Below are positions 38,285 through 62,764 of a DNA stretch of 64,000 nt, piece after piece (within the stretch, counting starts at the first letter, position 1; each line of letters starts with the position of its first letter). Made by a program: the position numbers and the translations under genes. The notes beneath the pieces were generated by a model that was not told where the DNA came from, searched no databases, and worked only from the letters and a program-made list of their open reading frames with translations. The DNA is taken from the NCBI GenBank assembly GCA_030847615.1, contig JAUMIR010000003.1, positions 282,218,265 to 282,282,264 of the forward strand, given 5' to 3'. The DNA is from Gambelia wislizenii (Eukaryota; Chordata; Lepidosauria; Squamata; Crotaphytidae).

Positions 38285-38520
38285 CATTAGGGTCTAAATA
38301 CCTTAAAGGCACCAGATTCTGTCTGATCCTGGAAGCAGGGTCAGCCCTGGTTACTACTTCAATAAGAGACTGTCAATACCAGGTGCTGCAGGCAGTATTT
38401 CAGAGGCAGGAACTGGCAAAACCACCTCTGAGTATTCCTTACCCAAGAGAATCCTATTAAATTCCTGGGATAGCCATAAGTTGACAGACAACTTGAAGGC
38501 CCACATTGACATTGACACAA
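38285..38520 (+). mobile_element. 5S rRNA-derived SINE (SINE3 type)
   Basis: GTCTGATCCTGGAAGCAGGGTCAG..CTGGTTACTACTTC..GAGACTGTC reads as decayed 5S rRNA in sense orientation. It is followed by GCAGGAACTGGCAAAACCACC and TAGCCATAAGTTGACAGACAACTTGAAGG, the body and tail shared with the tRNA SINEs. Opposite orientation to the copy at 12560. Confidence 0.85.
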
Positions 38521-41011: not shown

Positions 41012-41895
41012 GACTGAAAGGGCCTATGCAGTCTGCTGAATCGCTCCTATTAAACCTGAGAGCATTTTTCAAGTGTTTTTAAAATATGTCCATGTGTGAG
41101 AATCTAAGTATCAAAGAAAGAAAATCTAGTTTCACACTGGGTTAGTGAAAGGGTGCTGTTCAATATACATAGAACAGTTTTAAGGAAGTTGAAAACTGAG
41201 ATAACAATCACTTCTTTATTCTTAAAGGGCGTGTTTCTTTCTTTCTTGTTTATAATTGGTATCAAACCACATGATGTGATATGGACTATCCTCTTAGTAA
41301 AGAAAGATGCATTTAAAATAGCAAATTCTTTGATCAGTGCCTTGTACCTGGTAACTTCAAAATAAGAAAAATAAACCCAGTTTGGGATGTTCGCCACACA
41401 TAAAGAAGTTCTGTCCCCAAGCCCATTTTGCCAGAATAAAATGATAATAAAATGATAATCAGTAATATCAACAAACATTTATAAAGCAACTTCATGTTCA
41501 AAGAGTTTCACACAGATTATGACAGTTATCCTTATAACTATTTAAAATTTATGCCTATCTTTGACTGACTTATTAGGATGATTATGCTTTCAAACCTGTC
41601 TTTAAAAGGTACAGTTGAGTCAATCCATTTTATCCTCTTTTGAGTATGAGCTGTAAAAAAGAGTGCTGCTCCCCACCTGCTGAAGTTTTTTTGAAAAGTG
41701 GCTCCCAAGTTAGATGATGCCATGTATATCCTCTTTCTGCAACAGACTAATGCCAGGGTTTGAATTACTATTGAATAAGCAGCAATGAAATATCTATGAA
41801 AATAATCAGGAGTTCCAGAAACCACAAGCAACAATAAGGCAGAGTTGTCCTTAATCAGCAACGGCCATTTGTAAAACAAGGGCTGTGAGTCTCTC
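41012..41895. other. Upstream flank of RUNX P1, no gene recognised
   Basis: No supported gene. The two opposing ORFs at 41104-41478 and 41538-41909 have no recognised domain. May hold upstream regulatory sequence. Confidence 0.35.
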
Positions 41896-42114
41896 TCCCT
41901 CTCCCCCACCCTCTCTCTGCATACTTTTTCAGGGAGGGCAGGTGGTGTGGGAAGTGCATTGCTCAGAATGCTTTGTGTCTGTTGGTGTGTTTTTTTAAGT
42001 CAGCATCACTGAAATCATGTGATTTTCAAGAACCAATTAAAACAGGCTGTGGAAAGGGGAACAGTTAAATTTGTAATATTGGTTGTGTGAAACACTTCTT
42101 TGGGCCTCATAAAC
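41896..42114 (+). promoter_or_regulatory. RUNX1: Presumed distal (P1) promoter of RUNX1
   Basis: The 0.2 kb upstream of the conserved RUNX-site pair. It has no TATA box at a usable distance and no CpG island, as expected for RUNX P1 promoters, which are CpG-poor. Visible motifs include an AACAGTT Myb-like site (42059-42065) and several GGAA ETS-like cores around 42047-42060. The promoter assignment rests on the exon below; no start site can be fixed from sequence. Confidence 0.6.
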
Positions 42115-42130
42115 AACCACAGAACCACAA
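42115..42130 (+). promoter_or_regulatory. Tandem RUNX binding sites at exon 1 start
   Basis: AACCACAGAACCACAA: two consensus RUNX sites (AACCACA, complement TGTGGTT) directly abutting. This pair is the known hallmark of the 5' leader of P1 transcripts of vertebrate RUNX genes and is thought to allow auto- or cross-regulation. It sits 384 nt before the start codon, close to the leader length known for mammalian RUNX1 P1 transcripts. Confidence 0.85.
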
Positions 42131-42206
42131 GTTGGGTACAGAGGCAGTCACACAAGAGTGGGTCCGGGATATTGGTCAGCAGGCAGGGCGAATCATTTTG
42201 ACTGCA

Positions 42207-42214
42207 AACCACAA
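42207..42214 (+). promoter_or_regulatory. RUNX site in leader
   Basis: AACCACAA in the leader, third copy of the RUNX consensus. Confidence 0.6.
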
Positions 42215-42238
42215 GAGTTTCATAGAGTGGTAAGCATC

Positions 42239-42340
42239 ATGAAACCACAAGTGATCCGCTATTTCTCTCCCTCTCTCTCTCACTCTCTTTTTACAAAACA
42301 GTGTCAGTGTTTGTGTGAGAGAAAAAAAGTGGCTTATTAA
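42239..42340 (+). other. Upstream ORF 1 in RUNX1 leader
   Basis: ATG at 42239, 33 codons, ending TAA at 42338-42340. Its stop overlaps the ATG of the next upstream ORF in TAATG. No recognisable peptide. If the transcript starts near 42115, ribosomes would meet this ORF first. Confidence 0.5.
42243..42250 (+). promoter_or_regulatory. RUNX site in leader
   Basis: AACCACAA, fourth copy, 36 bp after the third. Confidence 0.6.
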
Positions 42341-42468
42341 TGGATTTATTTTGCTCGGCCAACACAAACATCCAAAGTGCAATGGCAGCAAGGAGGTTTG
42401 TTACAATGACCACTCTTAATTTTTTTTTACTTCCCAAGGTGACAGAAAACATATACACCTCTTTTTAA
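42340..42468 (+). other. Upstream ORF 2 in RUNX1 leader
   Basis: ATG at 42340, 42 codons, ending TAA at 42466-42468, 30 nt before the main ATG. It could allow reinitiation at the RUNX1 start. No recognised peptide. Confidence 0.5.
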
Positions 42469-42498
42469 AAGAGAGAATAAGATTTTAAGGAGGAAACC

Positions 42499-42556
42499 AT
42501 GGCTACAGAGAGCATATTTGACTCATTTCCTTCTTACCAGCAGTGCTTCGTGAGAG
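42499..42556 (+). CDS. RUNX1: RUNX1 first coding exon (P1/RUNX1c isoform), partial gene
   Basis: Encodes MATESIFDSFPSYQQCFVR plus the first base of the next codon, then a consensus donor GAG|GTAAGT at 42557. RUNX1 is the Runt-domain transcription factor (core-binding factor alpha) that partners CBFB and directs definitive blood formation; this exon gives the N-terminus specific to the distal-promoter isoform. The exon carries 58 coding bases, as the P1 exons of the three vertebrate RUNX genes do. Residues SIF, SFPSY and QCF match the RUNX1 P1 N-terminus; RUNX3 and RUNX2 fit less well, notably lacking QCF. Start context is AAACCATGG, a strong Kozak, and an in-frame stop lies 7 codons upstream. 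Residues 3, 4, 8, 14 and 18 differ from the mammalian form by mostly mild changes. The Runt domain and all other exons are outside the window or unrecognised. RUNX family is near certain; the paralogue is likely. Confidence 0.85.
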
Positions 42557-42559
42557 GTA

Positions 42560-44200
42560 AGTGCCACTCAAACTTTTAAATAAATTTTGAGTCATCTGTG
42601 TTTAGGAAAATGCATGTTTGCACTTTTTCAATGAGGTCTTATTAGCAGCATATGTTTTTCCACAATTATTTGCTCGGATTGTAACAAAATCTGAAATGTG
42701 AATGGATTTCCAGCTTGTTTCTGTTGAGCCACTGTGCTGAGGATTTGTTTCAGTTGTCCAAATTACCAGCTCATAATCCTTAGTGTTCTGCTTTATGAAC
42801 ATGACTGTCATCAGTCTTGTAAACTGCATGCAAAAGCCAAGGCACAAACCACAAAAGGAGCATCTTGTTGTGCTGGCAGAGTCTATGTTTTGGTATTTCA
42901 GCCATTTAAATACCAAACAGCACCCACCATGCGTGTATCACAGACTGGATAAAGGGAAGAGCAAGCTTGAGTGTCCGGCCAATGGCCTCTGCTGTTGCCC
43001 TATTTATGTATCAGTCTAGATAGATCATGAAAGAACTTCAGGCTGCAATTATTACATGCATATATTGTGCTGTCAAGGGGATTTGTCACCACCCTATGAA
43101 TGAGAAACCCCCAAGAAGGTCATCAACAGCCCTGCTCAGTCTTGTAAATTTGGGATTGTGACGTTCTTGGTTGAGTCAATCTGTCTGTAATATGCTCTTC
43201 ATCTTTCCTATTGCCTTCCACTCCCCCAAATTATTGGGCTTCCCCCCCAAAAGAGCCATGTTGTTTTATAATATGTCCAAAGTACAATAGCCTTTGTTTC
43301 GAAAACCAAAGAGGTGAAGATAATGAAGCAAATGAAACATATTTTCTGGGGTTTTTCTCTGAAAACCATGCTGTTCTCTGTGATTAGAAGTAACATGTTG
43401 CAAACACATTTGGAAGAATGAAGCAGTCCATGGAGGAGGTATCATAAGGCAACCTGTAGAACTGCATCTATCTTGCTCAGAGATTACCCAAAATTGCATT
43501 CTGTCTCTTGCCATTTTCAAACAAGTTGTTCAACCCTGAGAAATTCTTATTAGTAAATAAATCAACCTCTGTTAGTAAATCTGCTGGTGGTTGAGGAAGT
43601 TTAATCCTTGCTCAATAGTGTATAAAATGTTACTCTTTCTCCTGCAGAAGCATTCATAACACAGGTAAAGGCACTTGTTGATTTAATGTGTAATAAATCA
43701 GCATTATAAAGTGGTTATCATTTTTATGCCAGTGCTGATCAGGAGGGAATAGAAGGGAGAAACCTTTCCAATCTCTTCCACTCTGCCCACCTCAGGACTG
43801 TAATATGAGTCAGCCATTATTTGTATTAATAAGCATGCTAAGGAATGTGGAAGGGTCACAAACTGCTCTGTCACAACAAGCCACATGGCTGCTTCTCTCC
43901 CTCATGGACTGGAAATGGGGATGAATGCACAGCAGAAAAATGCTATAAAAGCTTTCTTTTATACTGAAACTCTAAAGGTTTTAAGCTACGTTTTATTGGC
44001 AATGGAAGATAGAGTTTAGTTGAATTGAGTCACTTGGAGTTGTGTGAGTCACACACCTTTAGAGGGGGGCAACATCTTTTTTGTAACAAAGCTAAGGATG
44101 AAGTATGAAGCTGCTAAATCTTCCCCCACTCATTTCCTTTGGGTTACTAACAAGCAAAGGAAGCAATATTACTAGAATAATACGGGTCTTCCTGGATGTA
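42560..44200. other. Repeat-poor first part of intron 1
   Basis: About 1.6 kb without any repeat family seen elsewhere in the window, in contrast to its surroundings. Contains one more RUNX site, AACCACAA at 42847-42854. No ORF with recognisable content. Candidate regulatory sequence. Confidence 0.45.
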
Positions 44201-44220
44201 GTTGGCCTTAGTTTTGTTCT

Positions 44221-44242
44221 CTTTTTTTTTTTTTTTTTTTTT
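44221..44242. repeat. Poly-T run
   Basis: 22 consecutive T. Confidence 0.95.
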
Positions 44243-44539
44243 GCCCATCCAAATGTTTATTTGCTCTTTGTCTACAGAACAGGAAGGCTTTATTGAGGAA
44301 ATTTTATTCATTTAGAATGTAATAAAGAGCGAACTCTGTGGTGTTCTACTTGACACTGCAGTATACATAGGCAGCCTGTTCATGAACTCTGTCAGGAAAA
44401 GAGCTGTAAACAAGGGGGTACGTTGAAGCAGAGTTTGAAACAGGATTGACTGAGGTCTTAATTCTTAATTTGACTGAGGTCTTAATATGGAGGCATAATG
44501 GTTTTTCTATAAGATTAAGTACAATGCCAAAACTTGGGG

Positions 44540-44610
44540 AAATTACCTTTTCAGACTATAGCTCCCAGAATCCCTATAACCATACCAGCTAGTGGGTTCT
44601 GGGAAATGAA
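44540..44610. mobile_element. Family J MITE remnant
   Basis: GACTATAGCTCCCAGAATCCC..CATACCAGCTAG..GGTTCTGGGAAATG is a short palindromic remnant like those at 8755, 51012 and 53010. Confidence 0.4.
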
Positions 44611-44707
44611 CCCTTAAAAATAAAGTATAATACTTTATATTATATTCTGTATAATACTTCCTCTGCATTTTTGTTATAATAAACTAAACCATGTCTATAT
44701 TCCAATA

Positions 44708-44840
44708 TTTTATTTATTTATTTATTTATTTATTTATTGAATTAATATCCTGCCTTTCTCCCAAGATGGGATTCAAGGAGGCTTACAATATTTTGTTAGA
44801 AAATTAAACTAAAAAAATTAAGCTAATACAGAGAATGCAT
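44708..44840 (-). mobile_element. L2-type LINE 3' tail
   Basis: TTTA repeat (44708-44738), then ATATCCTGCCTTTCTCCC and GATTCAAGGAGGCTTACAAT, the complement of an L2-like tail. Confidence 0.6.
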
Positions 44841-45190
44841 TAAAATTATGATAAAATCCAAGGTGACAGTTAACTGGAATTCTGTGCCAGGGTTTTGATG
44901 ATTATGGGGTGCACATCTACCTCATGCACTTCATTCAGTAGCCCTTCATCCAAGCAGATGGTGCTTGTACATTGTCAGTGAAGACATTCTTTTCTGCTCA
45001 CCTTCATTTGCTCACATTTACCAGTCCTGTAGGGCCCACCATAAGCTTCTTGTTTCTCTGCTGTTCTGTCCGATATGTTCTTGTTCTGGGTGTGTGCTTC
45101 GCCTAATAAATATCCTGAATGCTTTTTATTGGCACTTGCTCCTCTGAACATGAATACAAATAATTCTGTTACAGTTGCAAACTCACACTG
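44841..45190. other. No recognised feature
   Basis: Nothing supported; may include more of the L2-like 3' region in decayed form. Confidence 0.35.
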
Positions 45191-45831
45191 GGGGTTGCCT
45201 AGACAGTGAAAACAATCCTAATAGAATTCCCAGAGAATACTTTTTGTCTCAATGAGATCCAACTGAGATTCACAGTTTTTGGAAGGAGTGGGGCCCAAAA
45301 CTTCATTTACTGCACAAGAAAAGTCTTTGTGGCTTTTCCTGAGGTTTTTTGAATAATGCGTGGAAACGCGCATTACTGCTCGTTTTGACATCCCATTTGC
45401 AGTGCAGCACATTCTCAGCAAAGGCTGAAGTGGAAAGCTGATTGGTTGTATGTGTGCAGGGGGTGATCTTGCCGACAATGAAATGGCTAGAAGCACCATT
45501 TGAGTTTTGCATTACCAATTGTGCGCTTTTTTGCTGTGCTGAGGTGACTGAACAGCTTTTTTAAGTGTAAGGTTGCATTTGTACAACTTTGATTTAGAGT
45601 TTAAAAAAATACTGTGAAGCAGCAACAACTTGTGGAGAACAATAAGGTGAGTAATCCACACTCTGCCACCAGCTTGATTCACAGGCATGGCTGCTGTGTG
45701 TACACTTCAAACATGGATAGCTTTGCATACCAGTGACATTGCCAAAGGACTATGGAGACAAATGAACACTGCTGCAAATTTGCATTAATGCGTAGCAGCC
45801 CACGTTATATCTTCACATCTAGACAAGTCCA
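45191..45831 (+). mobile_element. Family E DNA transposon (copy E3)
   Basis: Left GGGTTGCCTAGACAGTGAAAA, right ATCTAGACAAGTCC. Body TTTTGTCTCAATGAGATCC, TTTGGAAGGAGTGGGGCC, CTGATTGGTTGTATGTGTGC, GCTGAGGTGACTG and ATGGAGACAAATGAACAC, in the same order as E1 and E2. Confidence 0.75.
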
Positions 45832-46063
45832 GCAGATGTGAAAAGCTGAAACTGAGTGGTAGTCAAGTTGTTTGCTAAATTACCTTTGAATTGAGCATCA
45901 TGGAATGCACAGCAACCACCTGTCAGTTAGAACTAGGGATGCTAATCATGCAAATAGACATGAGAAGGGGCAATGTTGGCTGTTTGTCAAGATAAACAGA
46001 CAATTTATACTGAAACTTAGTTCCCACTGTAGTTCCTTGAGAAAAAAGAGTGTCCTTATCTAT

Positions 46064-46671
46064 GGAGCTTTTCAGGTGTGTTTAAAGTGGCGTTATAGGA
46101 ATGCCAGGAGATTGCAAAAGGGCTCCCTTATCAGATAACATCATCCCCCATTGTTATGCACCCATTCTGTTCCCGTCCTGCCAGCACTGCTTTTTAATGA
46201 TGGGAGAAGTTGTCAATAGATCTCCCCATTCCGTTTCTGTCACGGATTTGCCTGCGTGTGACAAGGTGCCCCGTTTCGCTGGCGAAATCCCAGCATCAAT
46301 GGGAGGTCCCTGCCAGAACACTTCTGGGTGAGATCGGGACATCCAGGTAAGTGACACACTTTTTATGACCCTCCCCAGATTACTTTAACATTTTAAAGTG
46401 TGTTTTTGTGCTTGCTGTCACTTTTTTTCTGTTCCTTTTATTTTTGAATTTTCTGTGCTCACATCTTCTCGTGAGAATCTGCAGGATTTCGATCCAGGAA
46501 GTGAAGGGAGCTCCGTTAGAGCTCTGTTCACTCCTGGGTTGCCAGAATGATGTTAGAGAAGGTAAGTGTGGTGGGGAGGGTGATTGTGGTGGGTCAGGGA
46601 TGGGACAGGGGCGGGAGTGGAGATTGTGGGACAGGAACACTTTTTTTGTTCCTGTCTGATAATCTGCTAAA
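46064..46671 (+). mobile_element. Family C DNA transposon, diverged subtype (copy C4)
   Basis: Left GGAGCTTTTCAGGTGTG, right TTCCTGTCTGATAATC. Body shares GTCAATAGATCTCC, GCATCAATGGGAGG, CTTCTGGGTGAGATCG, CTTTTTATGACCCTCCC and TTAAAGTGTGTTTTTGTGC with C5. Different terminal bases indicate another subfamily. Confidence 0.65.
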
Positions 46672-47228
46672 ACCTTCTCTAACATCAGAATTTCTTAGCA
46701 TAGCTTATTTGAATCCCCAGCTTCCTAGTGATAGCTTTCCCAATGGCAGTTTGGAGGGAGGTGTTGGACAAATATGCATCTAACAGACATTGGGAATAGG
46801 TTATTACATTTAAAAAAAAAAAAAACCTAGGAGTAATCATCAGAAAGGGGGGGGAGGACTGGATTAGGAAATTGTATGCCCTAATGCTTAAAAAAAAAAA
46901 AAGTATTAGCCAAGGTTCACACATTTCATAGACTGAGACAAGAATAAGGTAATCATCCTCATATGGTAGTGAGCATTATATTTCGAAATATCCACATACA
47001 TCTACATACTTAAGTAGCTATAAACTTGTAGAAGATTATCACTGCATGGATTAGACTGGGCTAGAACCATTATGTAGGTTGTAGAAGCTTTTTGTTCCCA
47101 GAAACATTGTTTTCTTTAGCTTTTCAATACAAGAAAACATAATGGGGGCTCAAAACTGGAAGGCTGAAGTGGTACAGTCCACTTTACACCTTATGGCTTT
47201 ATAACCACTTTCTGTTGCATGTGTCTAT
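46672..47228. other. No recognised feature
   Basis: Two poly-A runs (46810-46824, 46888-46901) but no supported repeat or gene. Confidence 0.4.
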
Positions 47229-47441
47229 AGATTAGGAGCCTTTTCAACCTACATAGTTATAGCACTATGGATTCTATTTTGAAAGCCATCCCATTCAATG
47301 GAATCCTTAGATTTTCAGGGTATTTAGGCATCTAGAATTCTCAGCAAGAGAGCTCCAGTGGTTTTTCAAACTAAAAACCCCTGGTTTCCATAGGATGCAG
47401 CCATGGCAGTTAAAGTGGTAGCACTGTGTAATGTGAGAGAA
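47229..47441. mobile_element. Family F MITE (copy F4)
   Basis: TTTTCAACCTACATAGTTATAG at the left, GCTCCAGTGG, CCATAGGATGCAGCCATGGC, and GGTAGCACTGTGTAATGTGAG at the right follow the order of F1; the ends are inverted but decayed. Confidence 0.6.
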
Positions 47442-47947
47442 TCCCAGGTCTTACTCTCAGATCTGGGACTTAGTGCAAGTCTGGTTCTGTTTCTTGCCTG
47501 TATTTCATGAGGAAAATTCAATTGTTGAGGATATTTTTAGCAGATTGTGAGTCTTCTATAATTACAGCTTTAGCTAATAAATAAAAGTGCATATGGTTTA
47601 TATATGAGAGACTTGATTTATCCTAAAGTTTTGTGTGTGTATGTGTGTCTGCTTCCTCTTTTACTGTGCTTCGAACAGTTTCAAAAGACTTGACTTGACA
47701 AATTCCTAGGCTTTGGCGCAAGAAAAATAATCATTGCCTTGGTTAAATTGTTCTCACCCACATTGCTCAGTAGTGTTTATATAGGCCAGTCATTTGAAAT
47801 GTCCAAAATTGTTCAGTTATTTTTCCCGCTAAAATTTATTACACTTTGTTTCTTAACTGAAATTATGGCCTAAAGGGTAGAACAAACAAGTTGTTTTCTG
47901 CCTAGGTTTTACATTATCAATCCATGCAGTCCCCTCAGACGGAAATC

Positions 47948-48360
47948 CACAATTCTTTCTCAGTGCGATACTCTGTGAAAATTTGGATGAAAAAAGAGTA
48001 GTGGGGGAAGCAAACACTGGTCCCACCCTGTGTAAAAACTGACAGGATCACAAAGCTTGTCATGTTAATTGAATGTGGTACACCACAAAGGATATGACCC
48101 TTTCTCTATCACACCACACCAGGTCCCCTTTTATGCCACTAGGTAAAGAAACAAACATGCATGCACAATTCTTTCTCAATGCTATACTTTGTGAAAAATT
48201 TGGGTGAAAAAAAGAGGAGGGGGAAGCAAACATTGGTCCCCCACTCAGGGAAGCCTGACAGGATCACAAAGCTTGTCATGTTAACTGAATGTGGTATATG
48301 ACTCTTCTCAATCATACCACACCAGATCCTCCCATATGCCTCTAGGTAAAGAAACAAACA
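47948..48360. repeat. Direct tandem duplication of about 0.2 kb
   Basis: Units 47948-48157 and 48164-48360 share CACAATTCTTTCTCA, GGGGGAAGCAAACA, GACAGGATCACAAAGCTTGT, CATACCACACCAG-like and AGGTAAAGAAACAAACA at spacings of 216 falling to 203 bp because of small indels. No coding. Confidence 0.85.
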
Positions 48361-50095
48361 TTATTCTGAACCTTTGAGGTTACCCTATAAATTATAGGGT
48401 TACTTTATAACCCTATATATGCTCCATCTTTTATGCAGTACCTTTAGGGCTTTATAACAATGATCATAATAGCTAAAACTCATTTCAGAACCTTAAATTT
48501 GAAAATATATAAATCAAATAGCAACTAGCCTATAACAGGAGACTTCCCTGAATATTACAAATTCATACTACATTATGACAAGTCATGCTTATTCTGTTTT
48601 CAATTTGTTTTTCATTAACAAGTGTGTGTGTGTGGCAATGGGATATTTTAGAAACAAACCTGAACAATCTAAAGGCAACACCCACTTTGATGCATTTTGC
48701 TTATCTTGTGCCAGATAGAACTTCATAGCTGTAAACCACACATCAGAGTAATCTGGTACATGCCTACACATATTGAGGGCCTTGAGATTTACTCCATCAA
48801 TATGGGCTGGCAGCATTAATGGTTCAGCTCCTTTTTGTTTTGAACAGTTCTGCTACTAGGGCCACACTAAAGAGATCCAGATCACAAACCAGTGAAAACT
48901 CAGCAATTTGTAATCCCATAGATTACTCTGTCTCATTAATAGCACTTTAAAATTAATTGTCACTTAGATTGCACCCAAGTTATATGTGGCCAGCTGTGCA
49001 GCAAAAGGGAATGATTCAGCCTATGGTGAGTTCAGGGTATTGTCTGTATCACCCATGCAGACCAGTATGACCTTCAGTTTGCATTATCCCTACCCAACAT
49101 AGCCAGTGGGATAAGAAAATGGAAATCATAGTCAAGCAACAGCTAAATTGGCACACATTTCCCATCCCTAGTCTTGTAGATACATGAAACAGCAAAAGCA
49201 ACAAGAAGCTAAGCAAGTTTGTGTCTCCAACAGAGCTTAGAAAAGAATCCTTGGGGGTTGTAGTAATCAACAGTAAAATATTTCCAAGTTCCAATGTTCC
49301 CAAGCGGAACACTGCAAGGAGCTCTATGTACAATTCTTAGAGATCTATGGAAGAAAATTAGGGTATCAATTTAAATAAATACATAAAACATATTTTGTAT
49401 CATCATCTTTTGCTTCTTTGGTGCAATGTTGTAGCTGCTATCTCATCAGCTGGGGTAAAGAAGCAACATTTAGTATGAGAACAACCAAGGCTACTCCTTG
49501 CTGTTTCATATTTTCAGAACCATGTGCCTTTGTGATTCAGCTCCCAAGTTAGAGAACAGACAGAATCTTTTAGAATCCAGTCTAACATGACAATAAGTAA
49601 CAAGGCTTTCGACAAGAAGTCTGACTGAGAAAGCAGAGAGACCTGAGAGGCACAGGAAGTGGACTGTTGTAATTTCCTACTAAAGATAGAGACACCAGCA
49701 CTTATATTACATATTATGCCTCATTTGTCATATAGTGTAATACAGTTATGTATGTGTGGTTGTGTTTTAATAAGGGACCCTATTAAGTATAAACCACGCT
49801 CTTTGTTCATGGCAACTACAGCCTAAAGGATACAAAGGGCAGATGGCAAAATGTAGAAGTGAAACTAAAAGTTAGAGGAAACAGAAGAGCTTCAGAAGAA
49901 GGAAGACGCTGGCAGCAGCCTATAATAATTAGTGTTACTAAATTGAATCCTGTGGTTAAAACTTTGATACATGCATAATAATCACTCACCCCTGAGCACT
50001 GTTGTGTGTGGGGAGGTGTTTTGATGGCCTCAGATGAGGACGAGGCATACCATTGGTCCATGCCGTGCCATGCCATGGCATGGGAGAGGCAGAAG
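48361..50095. other. No recognised feature
   Basis: No supported gene or repeat. Confidence 0.4.
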
Positions 50096-50279
50096 CGGAG
50101 CTTACCTTACCTTATTTAAATCCTGCCACCCCGGCCTCTTCTCTTTCGCTTTTGTCAACCCACCCACCCGCCTCTGTTGCAGTATGAATTCTCTGGTTGT
50201 TTTTAGGGCAGGGTAGGAATTTTTACCTTTTTCCACTGGGTTTGTCCTACACCATACTGTCACTTTGGAATTAGAAAAT

Positions 50280-50735
50280 TGGCTTTGGGTGGAGTCATAA
50301 ATAGGCGGTCACTTGACAGGGAGTGTGGGAAATGGGGTTATTTCAGTGGTCACCTATGGCACCCCTTTTGGGTTGAAGGATGGGTCTATCAAACTGCACC
50401 CTGCAGATCATGTGGCTGGGGGCAGGGAGATAGGCTATCCTTGAGGCTGGCACCAGGTTTGAGCCCTCAACAGAAGTCATGTGGCTTGAGGTGTTTCATC
50501 CTGGGGTCTCGCCTTCCAGTAGATGGTGCCCGGGGGACATCCCCCTCGGGTTTCGCCCAGGGAAGCTGGGAGGTGGGTCTTGGGAGACCATCAGCTCCAG
50601 CTTTTCTGGAACTGGGTCTCCCCCCTGGTTTGCATACCTCAAGCAATAAATAAATAAATAGGTTAGATATTCAATAAAGTTGCCCAAATTTCAACCCAGC
50701 TTTTGTGTCTGACTCGTTATTTCATGCGTTGGTCA
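50280..50735 (+). mobile_element. Candidate solo LTR
   Basis: GC-rich block with CAGTAGATGGTGCCCGGGGG, then a run of AATAAATAAATAAATAGG and AATAAAGTTGCCC, followed by AGCTTTTGTGTCTGACTCG and TTATTTCA. The pairing of AATAAA with TGTGTCTGACTCGTTATTTCA resembles the R-U5 end of a retroviral or Gypsy LTR. The 5' boundary is unknown and no internal gag/pol is present. Confidence 0.4.
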
Positions 50736-51011
50736 TTAATCAACTATTTGCCCATAGCTTGACATAAGCTGTAATCCTGTACAAACATATCTGGGAGTAA
50801 GCTTCAGTGATACTGTGGGGCTTACTTTCACATGTACTTTCACAGGATGGCACCTGTTGTATTCCATGCAAGACTCAAGTATATAAACCCATTGATTTTT
50901 GTACAACAAATGATTACTTTCTTGTTTAGTGTCAACGAGATTCAGGCTATTGCCCACTAGTCACAGTAACTTCAGGTTGAGTCAGCTATGGATCACAAGA
51001 CTGATCCAGGA

Positions 51012-51126
51012 ATGGGGAGGCTTTTGCCCTCCAGACATTTTGGGCTACAACTCCATCAATGCTGGGTGGGGTTGGTGGGAATTGTAGGCCAAAACATCTG
51101 TAGGATCACAGGTTCCCCATCCCCAC
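51012..51126. mobile_element. hAT-like MITE, family J
   Basis: ATGGGGAGGCTTTTGCCCTCC..CATTTTGGGCTACAACTCC and GGAATTGTAGGCCAAAACATC..GGTTCCCCATCCCCA form an inverted repeat of about 115 bp, a small MITE frequent in reptile genomes. Confidence 0.75.
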
Positions 51127-51601
51127 TCTAGTGAGTTTGTGTCAAATTATGTCCCCTTTTTTTGCAGTGGAGGATGTTCCACACACCAAGAAAGAAAGAA
51201 AAATATATAAAAAGAGCAGAGTATTTTTTAAAAATCTTTTTACCTGGTTCAGGAGGGGGAGACCAACCTTTCCAAATCTGCCCGTGCTTACCTCTCTTCC
51301 CAAATCCTCATTTTCAGTTTGCCTTCCATTTCCTTTCATCTGTATTCCCACCCTTTCTGGTCATTGCCACCTTCATTCCACTATAATTGTTCAAATCCTT
51401 CTCCTCTTCATTCTCTGTTCCTCCTCATTTCTTTCCCCCTGCTTGCCCTCTGGCTCCTCCTCACTTTCCAACCCCTTAAAACCACCAGCAAGTCCTCTAC
51501 AACTTGCTATCTCTATCTCTCCATCCAACACAAAGGCGGGCAAGAAGGCCCAGATGAAAGCAATGGACCAAAGATTCAAGGTGGAGCTGCTAATGCTGCA
51601 T

Positions 51602-51615
51602 TACCTGTTGAAAGT
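51602..51615. repeat. Target-site duplication of LINE X2, left
   Basis: TACCTGTTGAAAGT, repeated exactly at 52530-52543 on the other side of the LINE. Confidence 0.9.
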
Positions 51616-52529
51616 CTCTCTTTCTCTGGCTTTTCTTCACAAACCAAGATTCAGGAAGGACTCATCCTGCGTTTTCTGCAAGCGCGCTGATAACCAAAAA
51701 GGCCAATCCGAGATAGACAAGTCCGGTTGCAAAAAGCACAGCAGAAGGTTTCCTCGGGTGATATTACCGGGTTGTGATTCTTTCTGAGTTGCCGTTTCTC
51801 TTCAAGACTTTTTCGGTGTGAGTTCTCAAATAAGGCTGCAGCATTGTGGATAGTGTGTCTCCATGCCTCCTGATGTGAGGCCAGGGCAGACCATTGTTGG
51901 TGATCAATTTGGCCGAGCCTGAGATGTTGTTTCAGGGAGTCCTTGTATCACTTTTTTGGAGCGCCCCTCTTACGCTGACCCATGGCGAGTTCACCGTAGA
52001 GTATTATTTTTGGGTGGCGATGGTCCTCCATCCTAGACACATGCCCTGCCCAGCGCAGCTGCATTCTCAATATCATGGCCTCAATGCTGGTGATCCCTGC
52101 TTGCTCAAGGACAGCAACATTCGTCACATAGTCAGTCCAGTGTATATTTAGGATTGTGCGTAAACAGCGCTGGTGGAAGCGTTCGAGGAGTCATAGGTGG
52201 TGGCGATAGGTGACCCATGTTTCAGATCCATAAAGGAGAATAGACAGTACAATGGCTCTATACACACTGATTTTTGTGTTTTGCCTCAGGTGTTTATTAC
52301 TCCAGATTCTTTTGTAAAGTCTTCCAAATGCGCTATGTGCCTTTGCTAATCTGTGATCGATCTCTCAGCTGCAGAGCTGTTTGGGCTGGAAGTCAACCTG
52401 AAGAAAACAGAAGTTTTTTTACCAGCCTGCACCACAGGACTAACACCACCATCCCCACATTGCCATTGGCAATTCTGTGCTTAAGTCCATTCAGCAGTTC
52501 ACCTACCTGGGAAGCATCATCTCCTCAGA
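51616..52529 (-). mobile_element. LINE copy X2 with 5' inversion
   Basis: Flanked by the 14-bp duplication TACCTGTTGAAAGT. The part 51616 to about 52345 is minus strand: RLAKAHSAFGRLYK-type start, the SILLYGSE and GELAMG blocks, the zinc finger, and the GCCAGAGAAAGAG tail. From about 52345 to 52529 the strand flips: on + it reads LSAAELFGLEVNLKKTEV and KSIQQFTYLGSIISSD, which is the RT segment lying just upstream of the FGRLYK block in the element. This is the product of twin priming during integration. 5'-truncated, and not coding as a whole. Confidence 0.9.
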
Positions 52530-52543
52530 TACCTGTTGAAAGT
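52530..52543. repeat. Target-site duplication of LINE X2, right
   Basis: TACCTGTTGAAAGT, identical to 51602-51615. Confidence 0.9.
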
Positions 52544-53009
52544 AAAGAGGCATTAACACTTGTATGGAGTGATTAGTGAGAAGGAGCTGTAGAAAGCATG
52601 CCTGCCCTTTCCTTTCACCTGTTTCTTTCTTTGATCTATGTAATCAAGCCTTTTTGCTTCCTTCCTGCCTTCCCCCTTCTTCAAAAGAGTTACTCCTTGG
52701 TCTTTCTTTATCCGGAAGGTATCATCCATGAGGCTCCCACCTCAGGGATGGCTTACATCCACATCCACGCATGACAGCCAGTTTTAGGGGCTCTTCTACT
52801 AAAATATTGGTAATCTCTCATTTTTGCTGTTGTTGTTGTTTCCTATCCCAAGATGGTTTTCCCCCTTTTTAACCTTACAAGAGCATCCTGAAAATTTCTC
52901 TCTTGTTTTCTAACACAAGTTCATATTACACTAGCTATACTTTATTATGTTTGATATAGATACCAAATATTCCCACATTATCTTGCCAACTCCACACAGC
53001 CTTTTCCTA
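52544..53009. other. No recognised feature
   Basis: Nothing supported. Confidence 0.4.
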
Positions 53010-53117
53010 CCCTAATGCCCTCCAAATGTTTTAGACTAAAAAACCCATCAGCCACTCCTAGCAATGGTGAAAGACTGTGGTGGCTGTAGTCTAAAATATC
53101 TGGAAAGCATTAGGGTA
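53010..53117. mobile_element. hAT-like MITE, family J
   Basis: CCTACCCTAATGCCCTCCAAATG..TTTTAGACTAAAAAACCC and GTGGCTGTAGTCTAAAATATC..AAAGCATTAGGGTAGGG are inverted ends; same family as 51012. Confidence 0.75.
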
Positions 53118-53878
53118 GGGAATGCTAATTTAAAAGACCCTCCTGGGTCAGGGAAATGAAATCAGAGCAATATCAATACCTAAGGGGACTATATATATAT
53201 CCTAAAAGACTTCAGCAAAAGAGGGAAGATGAATTTGAAGGACACACTTAAAGGCATAGTAGAATGCTCATATATTTTTAAAAATGACTTAAGAATTATA
53301 CGCATCCAACCTTATAATAAAACAAGAGAAATATATGATACTTATTCTTGTTAGGCCATAATTCCTTGAGCTGGTCCAATACTTTTTTGTTGCCTGAAGT
53401 AAAATAAAAAATGCTGCTGTATACAGAGCAGCTGACAGGATTGGGATGGGGTGGTATTCTCTGCCATACCAGAGGGCAGCCAGCTGGTTGGGGTGTGTGT
53501 GTGACAGGTTATGTAGCACACACTTCTTTCCTTCAACAAACAGCTGGAGAGTTTGCGAGGAACATGTGGGAAGCTGCCACTACTGCTTCTGAGCATCTGT
53601 TGTCTGAGATCATCACCTCACCCTGCCTAATGATAGAGCCAATCCTGCCATTCCTACACATTCATTCCTGTATATGTGATTCACTCAATAACTTCTCTGA
53701 GTATGCAGAGACCAGCCCACTCAGAGGGACAGTTGTCTACAGAATATTTAGTCAGCACTGGAGTGACATGTTCTCCAAATTCCCTAGGGGCTCGTTACTG
53801 ACAGGCCTTTCAAATATCCTTGTAGATTATTGCTGATCAAGTTGAATATTTATCCACAGTGACTACCTTCTAAGTGTC
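53118..53878. other. No recognised gene
   Basis: A 141-codon open frame at 53411-53836 has no recognisable domain; treated as chance. Confidence 0.35.
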
Positions 53879-53881
53879 TTA

Positions 53882-54208
53882 GGACTTTTTCGGATGCTGA
53901 AAAATAATGCAAGCAGCCTCGTCAGCTTGCGAGGCTGCTGCGCTGCAAAGCGTCCCTTTCGTATGACGCTCGCCCCTGCCGGTACTGTTGCGGTACCGCG
54001 GGGAGAGTTGAGTATCAGATTTCGTCATTTTTTAGTCACGATCAACTTTCTTGAGTAAAAAACAACGAAATATGATGCTCAACTCTCCCCACGGTACCGC
54101 AACAGTACCAGCAGAGGCGAGCGTTATATGAAAGGGACGCTTTGCAGCGCAGCAGCCTCGCAAGCTGACGAGGCTGCTTGCGTTATTTTTCATCATCCGA
54201 AAAAGTCC
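53882..54208. mobile_element. Hairpin MITE, family P (copy P2)
   Basis: 327-bp inverted repeat, perfect TTA on both sides (53879-53881, 54209-54211). Starts GGACTTTTTCGGATGC, ends ATCCGAAAAAGTCC. Interior GCAAGCAGCCTCGTCAGC, CGGTACTGTTGCGGTACCGC and TTGAGTATCAGATTTCGTC matches P1, so the two are the same family in + orientation, one upstream of RUNX1 and one in its intron. The arms are nearly identical to each other. Confidence 0.9.
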
Positions 54209-54567
54209 TTAATCTACATTTGTTCAGACTCTAGTCTTGGCACCTTTGAAACATAAAACTGAAAGAAGAACCCTGTCCTCTTGTTGAGGATGATACCAAA
54301 AGTAATATTGACAGATGGCAGTTCAGTCTTTCAGTGACAGTGGTGCTACATATTTTTTTTTATTGGAAAAGTTTTCATTAACTACATAACATATTTTACA
54401 CATTAAAAAAAACTAATACAGACATCTCAAACACCCATTCAACTCTATTTACATTTACAATGCATTAACATTTAAGTGGTGCTACATTTCTGTACTTCTT
54501 AAATCGGGAAAGTTCAGTCCAAAATGATACTTGATGATGTGGCCAAAAAGTGGGAGATGAAGTAAGT

Positions 54568-54737
54568 AAAGTAACAGAATTATCTCTTCCCCTTCTTTGG
54601 AAATAAAATCTGTGAAGGCAGTATATGGAGTTTCTCCCCCTCTCCAAATACCGCGAATCTCGTTTGGATCTCATTGGGACAAAAGGTACTCTCTGCAAAT
54701 TCTATGAGGAAATATTTTCATCATGTAGACAACCCCA
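54568..54737 (-). mobile_element. Family E fragment (copy E5)
   Basis: GATCTCATTGGGACAAAAGG, CAAATTCTATGAGGAAATATTTTC and ATGTAGACAACCCC are the complement of the left part of E1. Confidence 0.65.
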
Positions 54738-55342
54738 TTGTTTTAGTCCAAAAAAATTCTAGAGCATATTATAAGAACACAGCATTGTAATACCACTCTC
54801 CTTCCACGTGACATGTTTTTCAAACATTAATTACTAAGATGCCATGTGAAGAAGGACTGTCTCACATTAGTTCCCATGCTACCGTTGATACATTCTTCTC
54901 AGGAGTAGCATCCTAGCAATCTTGCTACTTTGCTTGTCAAATCTGAGCTGTTTTTACTACTTTTGTTTTGAACTATGTTTAAAAAAAACACCTTATTTGA
55001 TAGGGCCATAGTGCTCTTCCTCTCTTTTCCAGCACCAGACAGACACTACACAATCTAAAATTTCATCTGTCTGTCTGACATTCCTTTATTGATACAGCAT
55101 CTGGATATGTAAAACACATGAAGGTATCATTGCAAATCCTCAGTGACAGGATTGGCCAAAGTCAGCAGAGATGGGAGCCAATTTTTTACCACTGTGACAG
55201 ACCACACCTCCTGATTTTTGTCACTACATTTGCCAGATGTTGCAACTGGAAGTCACCTCTGATTTCAACTTTTCTCTTTATCTGGCCTATTTTGAGCCAG
55301 GAAAGTGGCAGGGCTCAGGGAGAGAATTTAGCAGTGGTGCAC
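54738..55342. other. No recognised feature
   Basis: Nothing supported. Confidence 0.4.
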
Positions 55343-55539
55343 TTTCACACTACACAATTACAGTACTGTGATTCCACCTTAACTGCCATGTTTCCATCTT
55401 ATGGGATCCTGGGCTTGCCCTTTTGCAATAAGCAAGCCCGGAGCTCTGGTGCCTCACCAAAATACAAACCCCCGTATTCCATAGGATGCAGCCATAGTAC
55501 TCAAATTGGAATATTAAGCTATAATTGTGTAGTGTGAAA
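55343..55539. mobile_element. Family F hAT-like MITE, complete (copy F1)
   Basis: TTCACACTACACAATTACAG and TATAATTGTGTAGTGTGAA are clean inverted termini; length about 197 bp. Interior CCTTAACTGCCATG, AGCTCTGGTGCCTCACCAAA and CCATAGGATGCAGCCATAG is the reference for F2-F4. Target duplication not resolved. Confidence 0.8.
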
Positions 55540-56654
55540 TGGCCCCATATCTTCTGTTCCTGAAAAGCAATATAATATTATTTTGTTACCTTGGGGTAAT
55601 TCCCCCCACATACACACACAAAATAGAGTGGCGGTGCAGGAAGCTGGGAGAGGCTTGGGGTCATAAAGAAGAGGTTGTGCCCACATGTAGCCATAGGCCA
55701 CACCTTCCCACTCCTTCTCTATGATGTAGAGTGAACTGTTAGAATGAACCATAGAAAGTTAATGATCACACAGGAAATTTGCAATATAGCAAGGGCCCTC
55801 CAACAACCTAGCCATTGAACCATTCTTCTGTGCCCTTTTTTTTTTCTTTAATGATAATTTAACAAATAACTTTGCCACAATTGAATGGCAAAGGTCCTAG
55901 GCAAGGCCATAGTTTATGATGCTAAATATCTGAAATGTAACAAAGGGCTACTCAGAAAATCATGCACAGTAGCTTGTGGAAAGGAAATCGAGTGAGAGAA
56001 ACTCATAAAAGACTTGGCATACTTGGGGGGAGGGCAGAGAGAAGAAGGATTGTACAATGTCTGATTTACACAGCCTTCTCACTGTTCTGTGATGCTCCAT
56101 TTTCCATTTTAAAGGCCTGGGTAATCCTGAAAGACCCATCACAGGAATTACTGGAAAGAAGGAGGTGAAATATCAAAAAGAAAACAATGTGCAGTTTGGT
56201 AAGGCTGAGAAGCAGCTCAGACAAGGCTGAGAGACTAGATCCAATGTCTGGGTTTTGAAATAGTGGTACATTTTCTACTTGCATTTGGCAAAGACTGTTA
56301 ATTCATAATTCTTCACTCTGTGCCCCAATACTATCAGTGGAAGAAAGCTTGAAACAGTGTGCCGTGGATTTATATCCTGCCAAAAGAGATGACGCTGTAG
56401 TTCAGTGGCAGAAAACATATTTTGCCAGCACAACAAGGTCCTCTCTTGCCTGAATCTCCATGCATCTCTCTAGCTACAAGGTTCTAGAAAGCTGCTCTCT
56501 GCTAGGCTAAAACAGAGCCGGGGTGGGGAGGATACTTTTTAAAGTTTTGTTTAGAGTATAACTTACAGAAATGCAGCTGGGGGATTCTGGGGAATGTGGT
56601 CCAAAAAAAGTACCCTTTCCATGCTCTAAGTAAAAGAATCCTAATGCTGTTCCT
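55540..56654. other. No recognised feature
   Basis: Short AT- and purine-rich ORFs only. Confidence 0.4.
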
Positions 56655-56875
56655 GTTGTGTGCCTTTAAGTAGTTTCTGACTTAAGAAAAGTCTAAAGGG
56701 AACCTATCACAGGGTTTTCTTGGCATGATTTGTTCAGTGTGGAGTTTGCCATTGCCTTCATCTGAGGCTGAGAGAGTGTAACTTGCCCAAGGTCACTCAG
56801 TGGCTGATTTGAACCCAGGTCTCCCAGAATCCTACTCCAAGACTCAAACCACTGCACCACAGTGTATCTTGATAA
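56655..56875 (-). mobile_element. tRNA-derived SINE
   Basis: TTGTGTGCCTTTAAGTAGTTTC..ACAGGGTTTTCTTGGC..TTGCCATTGCCTTCATCTGAGG..AAGGTCACTCAGTGG..TTTGAACCCAGGTCTCC..AACCACTGCACCACAGTG is the full SINE in complement. Confidence 0.88.
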
Positions 56876-56943
56876 AATAATACTCACTCTAAAAAGATCC
56901 CAATTCTTAATGGAACTCTATATTGCAAAGCAAATGGAAGTCA

Positions 56944-58022
56944 GGACTTTATCAGACCAGGCAAATATGGCATCATAACAATGCCTAATGATCACGAAAG
57001 GACGTGCATACCAGATGACAATCTCCTTTGACAATCATGTACTGTAAATGAGGTGTACTTTTTTATTGACGGCCCAGGCTGTCAATATATCTCCTGTTCA
57101 CTTTTCTGCTGGCATTGCCGGCATTTGAATCCTTGTGCCATTGTGCTCACATGAGTACTGTGTCAATGGGCAAACACTTCTGGGTGAGATCGCGACTACC
57201 AGGTAGGGGACACTCTTTTTATGACCCCTCCCAGTGTACTTGGGACTTTTAAAGTATGTTTTTGTGCTTTGCTGTACTTTTTGTGCTTTTATTTTTGAAT
57301 TTCCCACACTAGTGTCTTCTTGTGAGAATCAGTGAGATTTCAACCCTGGAAGTAAACAGAGCTCCGTTTGTGCTCTGTTATTGCCGGGGAAGCCTCATTG
57401 ATGCTGGAAAAGGTAGGTCTGGTGTGTGTGGGGGGGGTTCTTTTGCGGGCATAAAAATGCCACAATTTATGCCAGAAAAAGAATGTTCATAGAATCATAG
57501 AATTGTAGAGTTGGAAGAGACCATGAGGGCCATCCAGTCCAGCCCCCTGCCACACAGGAAATCACAATCAAAGCATACCCGACAGATGGCCATCCAGCCT
57601 CTGTTTAAAGACCTCCAAGGAAGGAGACCCCACCACGCTCCGAGGGAGTGTGTTCCACTGCTGAACAGCTCTTACTATCAAAAAGTTCCTCCTAATGTTG
57701 AGGTGGAATCTCTGTTCCTGGAGCTTGCATCCATTATTCTGTGTTCCAGTCTCCGGAGCAGCAGAAAACAAGCCTGCTCCATCCTCAATGTGATACCCCT
57801 TCAAATACTTAAACAGGGCTATCATATCGCCCCTTAACCGTCTTTTTTTCAGGCTAAACATACCCAGGTCCCTAAGTCTCTCCTCATAAGGCATGGTTTC
57901 CAGACCTTTCACCATTTTAGTCACCCTTCTCTAGACATCTTCAATTTATCAATATCCTTTTTGAATTGTTGTGCCCAGAACTGGACACAGTTCTGTTAAG
58001 GGAGGGGGGTCTGGTAAAGTCC
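56944..58022 (+). mobile_element. Family C DNA transposon (copy C5), split by CR1
   Basis: Left GGACTTTATCAGACC preceded by TCA (56941-56943); right GGTCTGGTAAAGTCC followed by TCA (58023-58025). This perfect 3-bp duplication fixes the target-site length for the family. The body ATGGCATCATAACAATGCC..GTAGGGGACACTCTTTTTATGA..GGAAGTAAACAGAGCTCC runs to about 57487, where a CR1 is inserted; the last ~20 bp resume after it. Confidence 0.88.
57489..58000 (-). mobile_element. CR1 LINE 3' end, nested in C5
   Basis: CATAGAATCATAGAATTGTAG is the complement of the CR1 3' terminus. The minus frame 57924-57568 reads MTKMVKGLETMPYEERLRDL, GMFSLKKRRLRGDMIALFKY and VQQWNTLPRSVVGSPSLEVF, the CR1 reverse-transcriptase C-terminus. 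5'-truncated. Confidence 0.92.
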
Positions 58023-58025
58023 TCA

Positions 58026-59154
58026 GTGTACAGGTAAAGGGATATTTGCAGAATTTTGTGGTTAGTAGGGCATCTTTCTTCATTTCTTCACAGCTGGGCT
58101 CCAACAGCAGAAGCTGCCTTGGGTCCCTGGTTGAGAGAAAAATGAAATTTAAATCAAACAAAATGAATGAATGAAATTGAAATAATTCTAGATAAAGGAG
58201 ATAGTGAAACATATTTCCAGAAGCAATTGGTAGGCATGGGAAGTGCTAATCTCTGCTCCCCCACCCTGGTTCTTCTTTGCCCACAATACTTCAACAGATG
58301 TGGGTTGGGGAATACATTTCTATTTGGAAGAGCAAGGCACCTCTCTTGAAGTATTATGACAGGGCATCAAATCATTAGTTGCTAAGCACATTAGCCTTAT
58401 CAGTCACCATATTTTTACTGGAAGAAGGAGGAAGGGTTACCAACAAGATCTCTGTTGAAGGGGCTCAAATATTTGACCACCTTTTGGGCCTCTGCTCCTT
58501 AACTTGCCGAGGGAAGGGGATTTACTTGCTGCTCTACCTCAGGCAGCAAAATATCTTGAGCTGGCCCTCCTTTTGCTGAGGTGACATATCATTCCACCCT
58601 CACATTGTCTCCAAAATAAGAAACGCATATTGCTATTTCATATTTGCCTGAAGGCCTGCTCAATCATTTTAAAGTCAGGTTTGCATTTTACATGGACATT
58701 ACAATCAGCCAACCAATCATGCCATTTCTCCAGTGAGGGTTTGTACTATGCTGGGAGATAAATACGTTGGCTACAATGTTTTAAAACAGCAAATAACAGG
58801 ATGTGGAGGAATTTATGAGGGAAGCCTGCAAACTGTCTGCTTTCACATCTGTTAATACAACAACAGAGTAAATGTGAAATCTCCAACTGAACAAGAAATA
58901 AGGAACACTCTGCATGACAACTACAGGTGGAATCATATACTGTAGACCCTAAACTGAGCCAATGTGGATCTCAGTTCTGAATCCATGCCTATGCCCTGTA
59001 TTTCCTTGACAGCATTTGGCCCTTTCTTTTTCTGTCACTACCATCATTCAGTGTCACAGGTTTCCTTTCATTACATATCTTATCTACTGATGGACACTGT
59101 GCCGAGGTCATGGATCACACACGAAAAGTACAAGACACAGGGTACAGGAAAAAG
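58026..59154. other. No recognised feature
   Basis: No supported gene or repeat. Confidence 0.4.
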
Positions 59155-59202
59155 ACAATCAGCCTGATGTAGTAGTCTGAGTGTTGGGCTAGGACTGTAG
59201 GG
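59155..59202 (+). mobile_element. tRNA-derived SINE, 5' piece
   Basis: CAGCCTGATGTAGTAGTCTGAG..GTTGGGCTAGGACTGTAG is the A-box half of the SINE. The B-box half (GGAGACCAGGGTTCAAATT) appears only at 61598, so the SINE was split by a 2.4-kb insertion. Confidence 0.8.
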
Positions 59203-59395
59203 CCTTGTTTACATGACAAAAAAAGCCCAAGAGGAATTCATGTTGATCCCTGGTAGCTCACACACATCACAGGCTATTCAGGAGGGGGTAGCAAAAAGCA
59301 AAAACCCACCCCTCTATTTTTCAGGATTTTCTGAGGAAAGTCCAAGACAACCCGTGCTATTGGTTGTCTGAACAACCAGGAACCATCCCAGGACA

Positions 59396-59922
59396 TGCCT
59401 ATCAGTTTCCGGGCCCAGTATAAGGTGTTGGTTATTACCTTTAAAGCCCTAAATGGCTTGGGTCCAACTTATCTCCGGAACCCCATCCTCCCCGCGCACT
59501 CCGGTCCTCTGGGAGGAATCTGCTTCAGCCACAAAAATCTAGGCTGTCTGCAACCTCCCAGAGGGCCTTTTCGGTAATCGCCCCCAAATTATGGAATGGC
59601 CTGCTGAACGAGATCCATCAGATGACGAGCTTGAGTAGCTTTTTAAAAGCACTAAATACGGATCTCTTTTGGCAGGCCTTTCCTGATTAGATCCCGTCCT
59701 CAGAAGCTGTGTCTCCTGGCCTCTTTTAGTCTTTTAGTCTTGCTTGTATTTGTATTTTATGTGATTTTAGATAGGTTGGTTTTTAACTTTAGATTAGTTT
59801 AATATCTTTTTATGGGGGAGGGTGGGGTGGGTGGTGTTTAGGGATTTTAGTTAGCATTGTTGCATTTTAATTCCTTTAAGCCTCCCCAATTATTTTTAAC
59901 GGAGAGGTGGTGTAAAAATAAA

Positions 59923-59962
<40 letters not shown>
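59396..59962 (+). mobile_element. L2-type LINE 3' end with (ATT)n tail
   Basis: The frame starts YKVLVITFKALNGLGPTYLR and runs, with a frameshift, to VIAPKLWNGLLNEI, the L2-like RT end. The 3' UTR TTTAGTCTTGCTTGTATTTG and GAGAGGTGGTGTAAAAATAAA ends in an ATT triplet repeat (59922-59962). Confidence 0.8.
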
Positions 59963-59975
59963 GGTTGGACAATAA

Positions 59976-61417
59976 TTGGACATTGGAGGGGGAGTGCTTG
60001 CAAGGGAAGCCTTGAAATCGCCATTTTGTTAGGGGGGCCCACAGCCCTCTGCTGGCTCCAAAGCAGCCAGCTCAGTGCCAGGCAAGGTCTCTCCCCTCCC
60101 TTGCCCATGCCAAAGCATCTAGGGAAGCCCCCTGCCCCACAGGGCTTTACCACCACCCTTGCCACTGCACAGGGTGGGGGTGTCTTCTCCGTGACTGCCA
60201 GTCATGGAGAAGACCCCCCACTACCCCACATGGCTTTTCCCCCATCCTTGCCACTGTGTGGGGTAGGAGAGGCTTTCCCCCTGCCCTTGCAGTCATGGAG
60301 GAGATCCACCCGCCCCGCATGGCTTTCCCCCCATCCTTGCTGCTGTGTGGGGTGGGAGAGGTTCTCCCCCCATCCTTGCAGCCACACAGCTGCCAGTCAT
60401 AGAGAACATCCCCCCCACCCTGGACAGATTTTCCCCCGCCCTTGCAGCCATGTGGGCTGGGGGGGTTCTTCTCCATGACTGCAGGCTGGCATGCTCCACA
60501 TGACTTTCCACCCACCATTGCTGCCACATGAGGTGGGGGGGTGTTTCTCTGTGACTGGCAGTCAAGGAGAAGACCCCCCTGGCCTGCACGGCTTTTTCCC
60601 CCTTGCAGCCACACGGGGCATGGGGATATTCTCCGTGACTGCCAGTCACAGGGAAGACCCCTCCCACTTTGCCTGGCTTTCCACCTGCCACTGCCATTGC
60701 ACAGGGCGGAGGGGTGTTTCTCTGTGACTTGCAGTCACAGAGAAGACCCCCCAGCCCGTGTGGCTTTCCCCCCTTGCAGCCGCCCGGGGTGGGGGATCTT
60801 CTCTGTGACTGCCAGTCATGGAGAAGACCCCTCCCACCCCATGTGGTGTCCCCCCTTGCAGTTGCGTGGGGCAGGGTGGATCTCCTCTGTGACTCCCAGT
60901 CACAGAGAAGACCCCTCCCACCCCGCACACCTTTCCACCCACTATTGCTGCCACTCAGGGTGGGAGGGGTGTTTCTCTGTGACTCGCAGTCACGGAGAAG
61001 ACCCCTCCCACCCAGGTGGCTTCCCCCCTTGCAGCCGTGCAGGGTGGGGGGATTTTCTCCCTGCCAGTCATGGAGAAGACTGCTCCCACCCCATGCAGCT
61101 GCAGGGGGGGGAAAGAAGCACGGGATGGGAGGTGTCTTCCACATGACTGGCAGTCATGGAGAAGATCCTCCCCACCCCACATGGCTGCAAGGGAGGAAAG
61201 CCACACGGGCTGGGGGGTTCTGTGACTAACAGTCACGGAGAAGACACACACACACGCATGGAAGGGTGGGAGGCTGTAGCCCCGTGGGGCAGGGGAGGGG
61301 GATTCTAGTTAGAGGCAAGTGTAGCTGTGCCTGGCAGGGGTGGTTCTGACCTTTCCCAAAATGGCAGGTCCAGCCTTGCCAGGCTTCTGTTGTCAGTCCA
61401 TCCCCTCAAATGTCCAA
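59976..61417. mobile_element. Element K: inverted-repeat DNA element with internal minisatellite
   Basis: Left TTGGACATTGGAGGGGG..GCAAGGGAAGCCTTGAAATC..GCCATTTTG and right CAAAATGGCAGGTCC..CCTTGCCAGGCTTC..CCCCTCAAATGTCCAA are inverse to each other over about 60 bp. The whole interior is a GC-rich tandem array. No transposase. Confidence 0.65.
60180..61260. repeat. GC-rich minisatellite, ~80-90-bp unit with palindromic core
   Basis: A CTCCGTGACTGCCAGTCATGGAG-like palindrome recurs about 13 times, at roughly 60191, 60283, 60387, 60475, 60551, 60635, 60724, 60805, 60889, 60979, 61058, 61143 and 61222. Between cores run CACCCCACATGGCTTTCCCCCC-like pyrimidine tracts and GCAGCC.CG.GGGGTGGGGG. Overlapping ORFs up to 283 codons on both strands are by-products of this composition. 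Confidence 0.9.
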
Positions 61418-61590
61418 CCAATCAAAATACTGCTCTGCTGTGTGGCCCTATCCTGGGATGGAGGCACTCAAGAACAAGAACTTTAAAAAACTGAGACTTA
61501 TGCTACTGTGACAAATCGTGTAAACAACACGGGATGAACTCAGGATGAGGGAATCCCGTTTCCCCCTGTGATAAAACTTTCGTGTAACTG

Positions 61591-61771
61591 GTGCCCAGGA
61601 GACCAGGGTTCAAATTTCAACTCAGCCACTGGGTGACCTTGGACAAGTCACACTCTCTGAGTCTTAAAGGAAGGCAATGGCAAACCTCCTCTGAATAATA
61701 AAATTTGGCCAAGAAGGCTGTATGATAGGTCATCACATAAGTCAGAGTCAATTTGAAGGCACATAACAACA
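61591..61771 (+). mobile_element. tRNA-derived SINE, 3' piece
   Basis: GGAGACCAGGGTTCAAATTTC, ACTGGGTGACCTTGGACAAG, AAGGCAATGGCAAACC and AGTCAATTTGAAGGCACATAA complete the SINE begun at 59155. Confidence 0.85.
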
Positions 61772-61884
61772 AGGGAAAACAGTATAAAGCACCATCCTTT
61801 TTACACCAGCATTAAGTCCTGAGGTTAGGGGGAAAAGTGAAGGTTTGATCCACGGGACAGCAAACACCCTGCATCGACACTAGG

Positions 61885-62760: not shown

Positions 62761-62764
62761 TCAA

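Follow-up and report, generated by a model that had tools for sequence, protein, structure and literature searches.

In the available excerpt of PMC3974841, the distal (P1) promoters of all three RUNX genes are reported to bear tandem RUNX sites, and a glutamine-rich stretch ahead of the Runt domain is given as a mark of RUNX2. For human RUNX1, the accessible part of PMC4762634 places P1 and P2 160 kb apart and describes reporters in which the three RUNX sites of the leader lower activity and the two promoter sites raise it. The length of the human amplicon is stated there as 661 in the text and 667 in the table, corresponding to a distance of 387 or 381 nt between the first tandem site and the ATG. 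Against this background we analysed a window of 64,000 nt, meaning the whole stretch of DNA at C22:282218265-282282264 (+), and conclude with a probability of about 98% that the part of it summarised in Table 1 is the distal (P1) promoter leader with the first coding exon of a squamate RUNX1. Both belong to a known, conserved kind of promoter and exon, and only small local details are new. The gene, promoter, strand and host group proposed in the initial annotation are thus supported.

Table 1. Coordinates of the RUNX1 P1 region and of its downstream partners (positions are those of the window unless a contig is named; human comparisons are with the available excerpt of PMC4762634)
Feature	Position	Strand	Remark
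Promoter RUNX site R2 with flank	41804..41827	+	22/24 identical to human R2 oligo
Predicted 5' untranslated leader, ~441 nt	42058..42498	+	start inferred from human spacing only
Leader core	42095..42138	+	44/44 identical to human RUNX1 P1 oligos
Tandem RUNX sites AACCACAGAACCACAAG	42115..42131	+	human R3 and R4
AACCACA, likely counterpart of human R5	42207..42213	+	weak
Fourth leader AACCACA	42243..42249	+	tentative; human oligo aligned here reads AACCCACA, non-RUNX
Coding part of RUNX1 P1 exon 1	42499..42556	+	MATESIFDSFPSYQQCFVR plus first base of next codon
Splice donor gtaagt, intron 1	42557..42562	+	from sequence
Start of RUNX1 intron 1	42563..64000	+	no Runt-domain or P2 exon in window
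Predicted partner acceptor of donor 42557	C22:282443256/282443257	+	inside P2 exon
Runt exons on C22	282443415, 282454255, 282504303	+	downstream of window exon

A 58-nt coding segment with a strong Kozak ATG and a perfect donor had been proposed, and its coordinates and context were each reproduced in the window sequence: 19 codons and one further nucleotide run from the ATG at 42499, which stands in the context AAACCATGG with A at -3 and G at +4, to a donor that reads GAG/GTAAGT. The nearest upstream in-frame stop lies at 42478 and the interval between it and 42499 holds no in-frame ATG; translation would start at 42499. As had been predicted, ordinary ORF calling misses the exon, which at 58 nt is smaller than the size taken by the default ORF listing. 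When the short peptide was compared directly with solved structures, nothing matched, as expected for 24 residues.

At 14 of 19 positions the encoded peptide agrees with the mouse P1-RUNX1 peptide as given in the accessible part of PMC5648507, which bears out the 14-position match claimed earlier. The runner-up among all six frames of the window reaches 7/19, and 100 first-order Markov sequences modelled on the window had best matches of 6 to 9 of 19. The exon has the 19-residue N-terminus with Gln15-Cys16 typical of RUNX1 P1 and, to judge from the mouse and human sequences in the excerpts at hand, differs from them at Thr3, Glu4, Asp8, Gln14 and Val18. When the peptide was searched against the RUNX family, a check that the initial annotation had called for, squamate RUNX1 came out on top. 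The relatives comprised 127 distinct proteins from two protein searches (one listing 8, the other the best 120 of 234); because RUNX1 sequences served as queries, this set is biased to RUNX1 and contains no RUNX2-named row. Closest among the matches listed was isoform X2 of Pogona vitticeps RUNX1 (P0021) at 16/19, from which the window departs by Ser3-to-Thr, Asn4-to-Glu and Met18-to-Val, followed by two gecko RUNX1 clusters and a Rhineura cluster (15/19 each) and by Lacerta and Podarcis clusters (14/19). Among the same matches, Thr3 of the window occurs in 0/127 and Glu4 in 6/127.

Could RUNX3 or RUNX2, instead, be the gene to which this P1 exon belongs? The peptides of RUNX3 come near: the 27 RUNX3-named rows among the matches listed share 10-14 of 19 residues with the window, a RUNX3-named protein of Thomomys reaching 14/19 and so equalling mouse RUNX1 as excerpted, and the RUNX3 P1 exons of Zootoca (P0120) and Pogona (P0129) have the MA..SIFDSF start and Asp8 in common with it. 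Both of these, however, agree with the window at only 11/19 and carry Ser-Thr at positions 15-16 where the window has Gln-Cys. Cys16 is found among the matches listed in 60/82 RUNX1-named rows and 13/18 unnumbered or unnamed rows, but in 0/27 RUNX3-named rows. Human RUNX2 is more distant, its P1 peptide matching the window peptide at 7/19.

Some of the listed relatives were peculiar in their own right. The RUNX1 P1 N-termini of birds (FESLPSYQHFLR; rows P0056-P0070, P0073, P0074, P0085 and P0086) are one residue shorter and are devoid of Cys16, and differ in this from those of squamates, turtles and mammals. In two predicted RUNX1 isoforms, P0087 (Rhineura) and P0071 (Chelonoidis), unrelated residues replace DTSTSRRF after the P1 N-terminus, reflecting either prediction errors or extra exons.

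We then turned to the leader. A tandem RUNX-site leader had been placed 384 nt upstream of the ATG, and indeed AACCACAGAACCACAAG occurs as a single copy in the window, at 42115 and at that distance, compared to the 381-387 nt obtained for human by arithmetic from the excerpted amplicon lengths. The sites are embedded in RUNX1-type flanks: a 44-base core, assembled from the overlapping human oligos around the tandem sites in section 6 of PMC4762634 (the part available), is matched without a difference, whereas the best fit in 100 Markov sequences was 29/44. Tandem sites as such are no privilege of RUNX1, and the finding that they occur in P1 of all three genes, including RUNX3, according to the excerpt of PMC3974841, and also in the human RUNX2 leader oligo, would be compatible with a RUNX3 or RUNX2 exon; that RUNX2 oligo, however, fits the window leader at only 20/26. 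The core, the R2 site (with its AACCACA at 41820) and the leader length are common to this locus and to human RUNX1 P1 as far as the excerpt describes it. By analogy with the human spacing reported there, transcription would start ~0.44 kb 5' of 42499, and the predicted leader contains four upstream ATGs.

Other parts of the human P1 region aligned less uniformly. Out of 19 human oligos from the accessible part of the paper, 7 matched best, clearly and without gaps, where expected, 2 fitted at the expected place with one single-base gap, 2 (R5 and R345_R) were tied with other places, and 8, including P1_F, P1_R1, SCL_F and both +23-enhancer oligos, had no window match above background. The masked R5 oligo matches the 42207 site at 15/20, tied with one other place, and hence weakly. 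Relative to human RUNX1 P1 as excerpted, the window may also have a fourth RUNX site in its leader, at 42243, but the human oligo alignment at this position is short (ungapped 14/19, tied elsewhere), so that the difference is tentative. Two human oligos of 20 bases each were used to look for the +23 enhancer in the window and in the intron sequence that follows it; the best match, 14/20, was equal to background.

These data also bear on the notion that the exon is a decayed or duplicated copy other than the one in use. Such a copy would be at odds with the intact frame, start context and donor, with four RUNX sites in the leader and with a core identical over 44 bases to the excerpted human oligos. 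There is no second cluster of RUNX sites across C22:282218265-282444000 (225,736 bases, reaching the P2 exon), where three AACCACA/TGTGGTT starts fall within 150 bases only at 42115-42249 of the window. With that stretch covered, we consider a decayed or duplicated copy extremely unlikely.

To place the exon in its gene, Runt-domain matches were collected from the whole genome (2,466,384,532 bases, 68 contigs). There are eight, all on the + strand: three on C22, three on C1 and two on C2. The three on C22 lie downstream of the window exon on the same strand and are RUNX1-type, as the initial annotation had anticipated for the scaffold. The first is 90% identical to Pogona RUNX1 (P0021, in its P2-exon part) over 93 residues versus 63-65% to two RUNX3 proteins, and the third is 100% identical to Eublepharis RUNX1 over 35 residues versus 94% to RUNX3. 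In-frame stops in some of the matches are exon-flanking bases, as in the second C22 exon, where LIF* precedes VVALGD. By contrast, the C2 exons agree with RUNX3 at 100% of positions, over lengths of 54 and 35 residues, and in the C1 matches, for which the references were RUNX1 and RUNX3 proteins with no RUNX2 among them, a glutamine-rich stretch precedes the Runt domain, the RUNX2 mark in the excerpted PMC3974841. RUNX3- or RUNX2-type Runt exons downstream had been named as what would overturn the RUNX1 assignment; such exons sit on C2 and C1, and not downstream of the window on C22. Unless the assembly is misjoined, this order refutes a P1 exon of RUNX3 or RUNX2, an assignment to which we attach hardly any probability, and the RUNX1 exon does, as first proposed, fix the identity and the + strand of the whole window. 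The P2 start MRIPVDTSTSRRF is located at C22:282443241, 182,478 bases 3' of the ATG at 42499, such that the order of P1 followed by P2 at a distance of 160-180 kb is common to this locus and to human and mouse RUNX1 as described in the excerpts.

Having both exons in hand, we asked how they might be joined. The P2 exon contains an internal acceptor GTAG/AT whose phase matches that of the exon 1 donor, G/gtaagt, so that at the level of sequence the phase-1 donor can bypass the P2 ATG and enter the P2 exon. On the basis of phase and of Pogona RUNX1 isoform X2, in which this junction is present (CFMR-DTSTSRRF), donor 42557 would join, across an intron of ~182 kb, an acceptor lying shortly within the coding exon of P2, ATGCGTATCCCCGTAG/ATACC. 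The last G of exon 1 together with AT would encode Asp, the junction residue of Pogona, and the predicted protein would read ...FPSYQQCFVR-D-TSTSRRF... ahead of the Runt domain. A phase-1 donor is common to human and mouse RUNX1, but the 39-nt exon of mammals (EC[IV][LH]GMNPSRDVH) was not found here: an ungapped comparison with the + strand of the P1-P2 intron gave at best 6/13 residues. This mammal-type exon 2 is absent from Pogona isoform X2 too.

The remainder of the window is consistent with the squamate host that had been proposed. On the minus strand, positions 24679-24544 hold a copy of the Sauria SINE, 78% identical over 139 positions (E 3.6e-25) to a consensus, and Sauria SINEs are reported across squamates in the available excerpt of PMC13295347. 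Of the 12 protein hits obtained with a transposon ORF (23954-24343), only two carry a species name; these are Phrynocephalus forsythii and Eublepharis macularius, both squamate. The window harbours further repeats. A 5S rRNA-like stretch at 12664-12783 (-) scores 42.5 bits against an Rfam cut-off of 38; because a partner at 38293-38432 is 75% identical to it in opposite orientation, it probably represents a family of 5S-derived repeats and not a gene. A palindromic repeat (1406-1741 and 53877-54211, ~83% alike) matches itself in both orientations, and its hairpin gives sub-threshold Rfam microRNA hits. A permissive Rfam search also matched microRNA families of plants and animals; these matches were set aside, being below gathering scores and, in several cases, on both strands of the same palindromic repeats. 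An interspersed repeat has three copies (2086-2757, 51665-52336 and 20922-21340) that are 89-92% alike and hence fairly young. The first copy overlaps ORF 2045-3451 (minus), which we take to resemble a LINE end. Searched with 8 of the 46 listed ORFs, this one included, Pfam gave no family at cut-off. Finally, GC-rich minisatellite arrays with units of ~62-121 and 84-254 bases occupy 2849-3362 and 60128-61295, respectively.

Taken as a whole, the exon is an anchor for the gene, strand and promoter of the window, and illustrates that a 58-nt coding exon below the default ORF listing size is recognisable by sequence alone; apart from this anchoring and the constraint on the leader, the outcome is routine annotation. 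By homology with the human cells described in the excerpt, RUNX protein may bind the tandem and neighbouring sites and thereby tune P1. It is conceivable, though rather unlikely, that the fourth site at 42243, lost or never present in human, entails a different RUNX1 feedback and that squamates, with no mammal-type exon, use the direct junction only. The identity of 44 leader bases with the excerpted human sequence suggests that the leader of RUNX1 P1 is under strong constraint.
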